Part shown: positions 331 through 45,733 of the stretch, in pieces
How positions within the stretch are numbered: the first letter of the stretch is position 1
Layout of the letters: the number at the start of each line of letters is the position of its first letter
NCBI GenBank assembly: GCA_027036015.1
Contig: JALVTH010000051.1
Span: 1 to 64,000, forward strand
Direction: 5' to 3'
DNA from: Campylobacteraceae bacterium
GTDB taxonomy: Bacteria > Campylobacterota > Campylobacteria > Campylobacterales > Sulfurovaceae
Length of the DNA: 64,000 bases
Program-made: the position numbers and the translations under genes
Notes under the pieces: generated by a model
What the model was told of the DNA's origin: nothing
Seen by the model: only the letters and a program-made list of their open reading frames with translations
Databases searched by the model: none

Positions 331-1167
331 TTAGTGAATAACTCTTCTACAGTTAACTCTTTGCCATGTATAGTATGCATTTGATACTTTGATTTTTTTC
401 GTAATTGTTGTATATTTTGGTGGAATTTTAACTGGAACTGTTTTTGGTGGCTCTACCATTACTTTAACTCTTACAGTTTTATAAAGTGGTGGAATAGGCA
501 CTTTTACTGTTTCAGCTGGTTTTACAAGAACTCTTTTTGTAATTGTTTTATATTGTGCTGGAATTACAATTTTTTTCGTTTGAGCTGGTTTTACAACAAT
601 TCTTTTTCTAATAATTTTATATTTTGGTGGAACTTTTACCAAACAAGCAACTCCGTTTACTTTAGCTCCGTTTGGTAGTGGAGAAGTTACGCCTACCCCT
701 TTTCTCCATTCAGTCGTTGCTGGTCTAACAAGTACTTTTTCTGTTACATATTTATGAACATCTGGAATTGTAACTAATTTATAAGTTTCAGGTTTAACTA
801 AAACTTTTTCAGTTACAGTTTTATATACTGGTGGCTTACATACTAATTTATATCCACCTTCTCTAACAAGCTTTTTAACAGTTTTGTAAGCATATTTAGC
901 TGGGATTACTTTGTAGTGTTCTCCACCTTGATCAGCTAAAACTTTTTCTGTTACAGTTTTATATTTTGCTGGGATTAAAACTTTTGCATAACACTCACCT
1001 GGTTTTGCATTTGGTGGATAAAGTCCCAAATCAGATGGATTTGCAGCTTTTACTTGAGTTGTTTTGCCACCTGCAGCACCATTTGCAGCAGCAGCTTGTT
1101 GCGTACAACCGCTAAATCCTAATGCTAATGCTACAGCAGAAGCAACTAAAAGTCCTTTTTTGTTCAT
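331..1167 (-). CDS. Secreted lipoprotein built of degenerate YKTVTEKVLVKPA-type repeats
   Basis: Lipoprotein signal MNKKGLLVASAVALALGFSGC; about 8 repeats of [IV]P[AP]xYKxxxxK[RK]VLVKPA pattern. Confidence 0.8.
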   Translation of the reverse strand: MNKKGLLVASAVALALGFSGCTQQAAAANGAAGGKTTQVKAANPSDLGLYPPNAKPGECYAKVLIPAKYKTVTEKVLADQGGEHYKVIPAKYAYKTVKKLVREGGYKLVCKPPVYKTVTEKVLVKPETYKLVTIPDVHKYVTEKVLVRPATTEWRKGVGVTSPLPNGAKVNGVACLVKVPPKYKIIRKRIVVKPAQTKKIVIPAQYKTITKRVLVKPAETVKVPIPPLYKTVRVKVMVEPPKTVPVKIPPKYTTITKKIKVSNAYYTWQRVNCRRVIH

Positions 1168-1214
1168 TAAAAACTCCTTGTTGAATTAATCTTTTTAAAG
1201 ATTGTGTTTATCAA

Positions 1215-1290
1215 GTCGCTACCCCCATGATAATCCACACACAAATCTTTTTTAAAGACTTTAGTGTGGATTAGTTTTGGGGTTAGCGAC
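1215..1290 (-). ncRNA. Long stem-loop in the 5' leader of the lipoprotein gene
   Basis: GTCGCTaCCCC...TAATCCACAC / GTGTGGATTA...GGGGTTAGCGAC arms, beginning a few nt after a TATAAT box (minus strand, 1309-1304). Confidence 0.65.
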
Positions 1291-1303
1291 TCCAACAGTT
1301 AGC

Positions 1304-1309
1304 ATTATA
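1304..1309 (-). promoter_or_regulatory. -10 box of the lipoprotein gene promoter
   Basis: TATAAT on the minus strand, upstream of the leader hairpin. Confidence 0.5.
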
Positions 1310-1440
1310 TTCCAACTTGCCTTGCAATTAACTAAAAAATAGCAAATTGAAATATCTTGCTAAATTTCACAGTTAATATTTTACAACAATTATTAATTAA
1401 ATGTCAAGAAAGCTTTTTAGGGGACTTTGTGTAAGAAAAG

Positions 1441-1516
1441 TGGTGGCCGCAACAGGACTCGAACCTGTGACCACTACCATGTCAAGGTAGTGCTCTACCA
1501 ACTGAGCTATGCGACC
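1441..1516 (-). tRNA. tRNA-Val(GAC), CCA encoded
   Basis: Minus-strand GGTCGCA acceptor pairs with TGCGGCC+ACCA; anticodon loop TTGACAT; GGTTCGAGTCC T-arm. Confidence 0.95.
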
Positions 1517-42945: not shown

Positions 42946-43368
42946 TTTTATAATTTCTAAAGTTCCCTTTTCTATCATCTTCCACGCTTCCTCTTTTTTG
43001 TGTGGTTCATAATATAAATCTGCAACATCTTTTCCATCAAAGCCAAAATCTCCTAACTTCTTAACATTTTGCACTCCAAGAGCCAAAAGTTCTTGCTTAT
43101 TATCTTCATCCATAGCAACAATTAAGTCATATTTACTTAAATCAAACTCACTAATATGCTGCGAACGAATATAAGAAATATCAATGCCTTTACTTCTTGC
43201 TAATTTTTGAGAAACACTACATGGAGGCTCACCAATATGATAATGGCTAAGTGCAGCTGAATCTACTTTGATTGGAAGCTTTAAATGCTTTATTCTATGC
43301 TCCATTAATCCATGAGCCAAAGGAGAGCGACAAATATTCCCTAAACAAACAAATAAAACTTGCTTCAT
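42934..43368 (-). CDS. Low-molecular-weight protein tyrosine phosphatase
   Basis: VCLGNICRSPLAHG P-loop; DEDNKQEL. Confidence 0.92.
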   Translation of the reverse strand: MKQVLFVCLGNICRSPLAHGLMEHRIKHLKLPIKVDSAALSHYHIGEPPCSVSQKLARSKGIDISYIRSQHISEFDLSKYDLIVAMDEDNKQELLALGVQNVKKLGDFGFDGKDVADLYYEPHKKEEAWKMIEKGTLEIIKLVV

Positions 43369-43895
43369 TGCTTAACTTTCTCAAAAAGATAAAAATCTTT
43401 AAATTCACCATTCATAAAAAGATGCGCCTCAAGCAAAGCAACCTTTTTAAAAGCTAAACGCTGTGCTAAATTTTGGCTTTTGATATTTTCTTTTTGAGCA
43501 TAAATTGAGAGTTTTTTAAGACCTAGTTCCTTAAAAGCAATCTCAATAAGCGCTCCTACCGCTTTACTTGCCAATCCTTGTCCTTCATAATCTTTATCAA
43601 TCCAATAACCAATTGAGGCTTTTTTATTCTTTTGAGAAATTTTATGCAAATCGCAAACTCCTATAATTTTTCTTTTATAACTTATTAAACAACTTAAAAT
43701 TTCTCCTTTTGCCAAACCCTGAAGTTGCGAATAGATAAAAGTTTTTGTATCTTGCACACACTTAAGATCATTTGCCCAAGGAAACCAAGGCTTAAGATGC
43801 TCCTTATTTTTTATTGAAAGAGCAAAAAGTTCATCGGCAAAATGGGGCATATTTAAAACTAAAGCAAGATTTTCATCAATTACTTTTTGAAACAT
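43365..43895 (-). CDS. GNAT N-acetyltransferase (RimJ/RimL-like)
   Basis: IGYWIDKDYEGQGLASKAVGALIEIAF. Confidence 0.85.
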   Translation of the reverse strand: MFQKVIDENLALVLNMPHFADELFALSIKNKEHLKPWFPWANDLKCVQDTKTFIYSQLQGLAKGEILSCLISYKRKIIGVCDLHKISQKNKKASIGYWIDKDYEGQGLASKAVGALIEIAFKELGLKKLSIYAQKENIKSQNLAQRLAFKKVALLEAHLFMNGEFKDFYLFEKVKQ

Positions 43896-43977
43896 TATAA
43901 AAACCTTTCGTTGTGTAATTTCTATACATTTTCTTAAAAAATTTTCTCTTTTCAACAAATATTACACGAAAATATAT

Positions 43978-43983
43978 TATAAT
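43978..43983 (+). promoter_or_regulatory. -10 box of candidate sRNA
   Basis: TATAAT, 6-7 nt upstream of the start of the first stem. Confidence 0.6.
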
Positions 43984-43989
43984 TGCAAT

Positions 43990-44112
43990 GTGTCAAATGC
44001 GAAACATTGTTTCCTCCTCCCCAAAACAAAAAGCATTTGACACCCTAAAATCATAATGTATTTCCTCCCCCTTACATTAAGATTTGGCCCCTTCAAAAGG
44101 AAGGGGCTTTTT
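43990..44112 (+). ncRNA. Candidate intergenic sRNA with C-rich anti-SD-like loops
   Basis: Stem 1 GTGTCAAATGC/GCATTTGACAC with internal TTGTTT-CCTCCTCCCCA-AAACAA; stem 2 TAATGTA-TTTCCTCCCCCT-TACATTA; terminator GCCCCTTC-aaaag-GAAGGGGC-TTTTT. Confidence 0.75.
44087..44112 (+). terminator. Intrinsic terminator of candidate sRNA
   Basis: GCCCCTTC/GAAGGGGC 8-bp stem plus TTTTT. Confidence 0.85.
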
Positions 44113-44172
44113 AGTAAAAACCTTATTACAATAATCCTTTAGAGCAGAAGCAACTAAAAATCCTCCTTAAAA

Positions 44173-44195
44173 ACTCCTGCAAAGAGTGCAGGAGT
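44173..44195 (-). terminator. Terminator of the eno-ftsB-like operon
   Basis: ACTCCTGCA/TGCAGGAGT perfect stem followed by TTTTTAAGG on the minus strand. Confidence 0.65.
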
Positions 44196-44196
44196 A

Positions 44197-45733
<1,537 letters not shown>

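Follow-up and report, generated by a model that had tools for sequence, protein, structure and literature searches.

A candidate small RNA with two C-rich, anti-Shine-Dalgarno-type loops in a Sulfurovaceae-like campylobacterium

Between the minus-strand gene of an acetyltransferase and the minus-strand enolase-orf94 operon, the genome (1.69 Mb) of an uncultured Sulfurovaceae-like, "sulfur-vent-type" campylobacterium contains a short plus-strand stretch in which a TATAAT box is followed by two hairpins with C-rich loops and a terminator. This raises the question whether the locus encodes a small RNA directed against ribosome-binding sites or whether its symmetry has another cause. The relevant features of the window, i.e., of the whole stretch of 64,000 nucleotides that was analysed, are listed here; they were read from the sequence unless another source is given.

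43368-43895, minus strand: gene for a GNAT acetyltransferase (Pfam PF13302), divergent from the candidate sRNA
43970-44063: imperfect inverted repeat of 31 bp with 25 of 31 positions matching (arms 43970-44000 and 44033-44063)
43978-43983, plus strand: -10 box TATAAT; weak promoter-like sites in the promoter scan
43990-44112, plus strand: candidate sRNA of about 123 nt (fold z -6.5)
43990-44043, plus strand: hairpin 1, with an 11-bp outer stem GTGTCAAATGC/GCATTTGACAC and a 6-bp inner stem TTGTTT/AAACAA
43990-44000 and 44033-44043, plus strand: arms of the outer stem of hairpin 1
44007-44012 and 44024-44029, plus strand: inner arms of hairpin 1
44013-44023, plus strand: loop 1, CCUCCUCCCCA (checked as CCTCCTCCCCA), containing the ar14-type motif CCUCCUCCC and the seed
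44048-44085, plus strand: hairpin 2, TAATGTA/TACATTA (7 bp) extended by AAATC/GATTT (sequence and fold)
44054-44060 and 44073-44079, plus strand: inner (7-bp) arms of hairpin 2
44061-44072, plus strand: loop 2, UUUCCUCCCCCU (checked as TTTCCTCCCCCT), carrying the shared seed
44086-44112, plus strand: intrinsic terminator with a nine-pair stem GGCCCCTTC/GAAGGGGCT followed by U5 (fold and terminator scan)
44171-44193, minus strand: terminator-like stem ACTCCTGC/GCAGGAGT closing the enolase-orf94 operon
44197-44472, minus strand: orf94, a DivIC-like small membrane protein encoded downstream of enolase and kept beside it (match to PF04977 weak, below the cut-off)

The TATAAT box, the 11-bp stem with its inner hairpin, the second hairpin, and the terminator with U5 were all found where the sequence-only reading had placed them. 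For the second hairpin, the 7-bp stem and its loop were correctly described, but the stem is longer than had been assumed, as AAATC/GATTT (44048-44052 and 44081-44085) adds five pairs past an A-A mismatch to give 12 pairs in all. Similarly, the terminator was recognized correctly, but its stem, described as 8 bp, folds here as nine pairs; it spans 44086-44108, encloses the loop AAAAG in both the sequence and the terminator scan, and leads into T5 at 44108-44112. The minimum free energy of the locus is -41.5 kcal/mol, compared with -19.9 +/- 3.3 kcal/mol in 200 dinucleotide shuffles (z -6.5), none of which folds as well, and a scan of the window in 12,776 stretches of 128 nt each places the fold among the strongest. 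In the predicted ensemble, both loops are 92-100% unpaired (unpaired probability 0.92-1.0). A leaderless 22-codon open reading frame starting at ATG 43988 was considered and discarded, as it has no Shine-Dalgarno sequence and no relatives and runs through the hairpin.

Both loops carry the same 8-mer UCCUCCCC (= TCCTCCCC), at 44015-44022 and at 44063-44070, which extends to CCUCCUCCCC in loop 1 and to UUUCCUCCCCC in loop 2. Among 1000 simulated 64-kb strands of the same dinucleotide make-up as the real window, only one pair of hairpins at most 90 nt apart shared a loop 8-mer with at least six G+C; when the G+C condition is dropped, shared 8-mers, mostly A+T-rich ones, are common, at about 0.2 pairs for each simulated strand. 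Also, nowhere else in the window does CCTCC occur twice in loops within 60 nt on perfect stems of at least 6 bp.

With regard to orientation, the terminator scan of the locus detects an intrinsic terminator on the plus strand and none on the minus strand, in agreement with the earlier argument for the plus orientation from a one-sided terminator. The promoter scan finds no good -35 element ahead of the plus-strand -10 box, which is usual in Campylobacterota, and it reports better promoter-like matches on the minus strand than on the plus strand, inside the arm of stem 1. The stem at 44171-44193 does not appear in the list of the terminator scan, its T tail being just short of the rule. Since enolase-orf94 ends in this stem of its own and the GNAT gene, which starts at 43895, has its own ribosome-binding site, the candidate sRNA is, by its layout, a free-standing unit between two minus-strand units. 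The proposal of two anti-Shine-Dalgarno loops on an independent plus-strand sRNA thus holds as far as the sequence goes, namely for the promoter box, the structure, the terminator on the plus strand only, and the separate enolase-orf94 stem. As a separate observation, stem 1 contains TTGACA in its 5' arm when read on the minus strand (43969-43996), and a -10-like hexamer follows 16 nt further on; this is a possible GNAT promoter overlapping the sRNA gene.

The locus 43990-44112 probably encodes a trans-acting sRNA, transcribed on its own and ended by an intrinsic terminator, which would block ribosome-binding sites of the GGGGAGGA type without Hfq; we regard it as a good but unproven candidate. 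That the RNA is made, pairs in the cell, represses, and acts on the targets named below is inferred from the features described. Two rigid hairpins would present the same single-stranded seed UCCUCCCC, and the loops would base-pair with GGGGAGGA(GG), a purine-rich type of ribosome-binding site, in a restricted group of mRNAs, so that translation initiation would be blocked at one or two targets per molecule, the pairing presumably proceeding without Hfq. A search of the genome for Hfq gave nothing above the cut-off, which fits a self-sufficient structured sRNA. The complement of UCCUCCCC, GGGGAGGA, has 18 occurrences in the 1.69-Mb genome when both strands are counted, two of them at the locus, and is hardly enriched relative to the reversed pattern (12). 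At five of the 16 sites outside the locus, the ATG of a plausible open reading frame follows 1-9 nt downstream. By position and pairing, the best candidate targets are a 497-aa protein without a Pfam match (GGGGAGGAGGAGATAAAATG), a MazG-like pyrophosphohydrolase, a NUDIX hydrolase, glucose-6-phosphate isomerase, and an MFS transporter. Predicted loop-target duplexes reach -19 to -24 kcal/mol, compared with -13.7 to -17.5 kcal/mol for the 16S tail at the same sites, where the tail is the common bacterial sequence and was not read from this genome.

The symmetry of the locus suggests a different explanation, in which the stem would belong to an operator, or to an inverted duplication, at the divergent GNAT promoter and the C-rich tracts would be incidental. 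The 31-bp inverted repeat pairs the -10 region and the 5' arm of stem 1 with the 3' arm of stem 1 and the left arm of hairpin 2; no comparable inverted repeat was present in 20 simulated windows. Because stem 1 sits in this repeat, which includes the -10 box, an origin at the level of DNA has to be considered, and TTGACA and TATAAT-like hexamers on the minus strand, in and beside the arm, point in the same direction. However, this explanation does not account for the second complete hairpin, the common loop seed, and the one-sided terminator, and the arms are 32 bp apart, which is wide for a simple operator; we consider it unlikely. An inverted duplication of DNA may have given rise to the hairpin; with such a repeat present, the stem by itself is a weaker argument, whereas the loops and the terminator keep their weight. 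If instead the minus strand were functional, it might form a leader with G-rich Shine-Dalgarno sequences before short open reading frames, perhaps regulating GNAT. An ATG does follow each G-rich loop at Shine-Dalgarno spacing, one of them 8 nt after GGGGAGGA and opening 25 codons, but the frames are very short and kept by no known relative, GNAT has a closer ribosome-binding site of its own, and the minus strand lacks a terminator, all of which makes this very improbable.

Two other explanations accept an RNA and differ in what its loops would bind. The C-rich loops might titrate an RNA-binding protein and not pair with mRNAs, and two exposed copies of one motif on rigid hairpins are indeed a usual layout of protein-titrating RNAs. 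However, CsrA-type sponges carry GGA and not CCUCC, and no C-rich-binding regulator is known to us from this group, so that a protein sponge seems highly unlikely. A general inhibitor of translation, i.e., an abundant RNA whose loops bind many Shine-Dalgarno sequences non-specifically and slow translation as a decoy, as might be imagined for the toxic sRNAs, is improbable to a lesser degree. The full core of the 16S anti-Shine-Dalgarno sequence, CCUCCU, is present in loop 1, and members of the weakly matching family RF02278 are toxic to E. coli when cloned, their function in their own host being unknown (PMC4603805). Yet the loops share the longer and rarer UCCUCCCC and not plain CCUCC, suggesting a preferred set of targets.

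As a functional kind, and not as a family, the candidate shows the predicted features of a C-rich-loop anti-Shine-Dalgarno riboregulator: unpaired CCUCC-type loops, stable hairpins, and an intrinsic terminator. Its closest Rfam families, all below threshold, include anti-hemB, Betaproteobacteria_toxic_sRNA, and ar14, which all have C-rich loops or segments. The best match, anti-hemB or Burkholderia RNA 7 (RF02837), scores 24.7 bits (E 7e-4) against a gathering cut-off of 49.5 and shares a hairpin with a UCUCCUCCCUG loop followed by a terminator, but the candidate is not situated beside hemB. The RF02837 model also weakly matches plain terminators in other genomes, and when it was run over 299 genomes, these and other chance matches were returned, none with a C-rich-loop hairpin. 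RF02278 reaches 24.3 bits against a cut-off of 50, the weak match covering hairpin 2 and the terminator; both are short RNAs with a UCUCCUC-type segment and then an intrinsic terminator, but RF02278 has only one C-rich segment and its members in PMC4603805 are from Burkholderia. For ar14 (RF02344), the score is 19.9 bits (16.2 in a second search) against a cut-off of 58.8. The hairpins of ar14/NfeR1 have variable stems and CCUCCUCCC anti-Shine-Dalgarno loops (PMC10746234, PMC3927594), and these alphaproteobacterial "cuckoo" sRNAs, which include SmelA075, end in an intrinsic terminator, as the candidate does. Loop 1 of the candidate contains CCUCCUCCC exactly and loop 2 has the close variant UUUCCUCCCCC, but there are two C-rich loops and not three, the terminator loop not being C-rich, the phylum is another one, and outside the loops there is no likeness of sequence. 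Because these scores are at or below half of the Rfam cut-offs, no membership is claimed; the candidate would act like these families and belongs to none of them.

Within the same phylum, RepG of Helicobacter pylori pairs a C/U-rich terminator loop with a homopolymeric G repeat in a G-rich leader (PMC8295292). A C/U-rich loop facing a G-rich leader would be common to both, but the candidate carries AAAAG in its terminator loop, and its targets would be Shine-Dalgarno sequences. CJnc230 (FlmE) of Campylobacter jejuni, processed from the flgE mRNA, is also an sRNA with a putative anti-Shine-Dalgarno motif (PMC11187230), but its short CCUU lies single-stranded between stem-loops and not in a loop. 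A literature search for sRNAs of this genus and of Sulfurovum retrieved no paper.

The organism had been taken for a member of the Nautiliales, but the relatives of its enolase are Nitratifractor- and Sulfurovum-like MAGs. At the sensitivity used, none of the 11 other genomes of the genus contains the locus, and no homologue was detected in 174 other genomes of the family or among the remainder of 399 order genomes. A DNA search over 99 genomes, its own and those of relatives, returned besides the locus only one 39-nt coding match; a single-sequence covariance model run over order, genus, and family returned the locus itself and weak chance matches only, plasmid and phage collections gave no match to it, and an exact-pattern search of IMG/VR gave nothing. 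The two-loop pattern is found in 56 of the 399 order genomes, about the rate of the reversed control, and by eye its matches are repeats or coding-like stretches, none with the hairpin layout of the locus, not all of them having been folded. The lack of a relative carrying the locus, and with it of conservation and covariation, counts against the sRNA reading. Gene order around it is not kept in the genus and close relatives: orf94 stays beside enolase, but the gene behind orf94 varies among the close relatives examined, and GNAT homologues in the genus have different upstream sequences.

While C-rich sites were being counted, a spacer in a tRNA array on another contig of the same genome was encountered (G000:C30:7059-7174, minus strand, equal to L116:3060-3175, minus strand). 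The element lies behind tRNA-Asp(GTC) in 10 of the 12 genomes of the genus, i.e., in its own and nine others (homologues L218-L226), and in these its 21-nt core TTTAATCCTCCTCCTTTAGTA is invariant. In the short hairpin after the core, four of the five pairs have changed on both sides and thus covary, and a variable C-rich tract is present as well. The outer A-U helix around the core is less certain because this stem hardly varies. By our own comparison, the core resembles the 16S rRNA tail, and a TATAAT-like box just upstream of it in several genomes would make it the 5' end of its own transcript. Rfam detects no family besides tRNA at this element. A match in G066, from another family, was rejected because tRNAs are lacking around it and its sequence resembles a coding stretch. 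The tRNA-Asp element is the better-conserved and stronger anti-Shine-Dalgarno candidate in the genus, compared with the orphan two-loop RNA.

Taking the orphan two-loop RNA together with this genus-wide counterpart in a tRNA operon, one might tentatively suppose that anti-Shine-Dalgarno sRNAs of a class of their own, apart from the proteobacterial cuckoo RNAs, evolved in Campylobacteria lacking Hfq, a supposition which we consider possible and rather doubtful. If the two-loop RNA is real, repeated anti-Shine-Dalgarno loops would have arisen anew in a phylum in which most sRNAs act without Hfq. The locus would then offer a compact, testable case, in which the seed is present in two identical copies, the targets are few, and the origin is lineage-specific, perhaps from an inverted duplication around a promoter.

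Other observations concern the left end of the window. The strongest fold of the window is a long hairpin at 1203-1330 (minus strand) in the 5' leader of a gene for a 278-aa protein, with z -6.5 for 1160-1340 (minus strand). At 1328-1479 (plus strand), the Rfam family HPnc0260 (RF02194) is found above its cut-off, overlapping in antisense the tRNA gene at 1444-1516 (minus strand). The stretch at 1132-1178, the start of the minus-strand 278-aa gene with its ribosome-binding site, is 77% identical (E 3e-5) to 44140-44178; the latter stretch, situated between the sRNA and orf94, resembles a remnant of a gene start of this kind.
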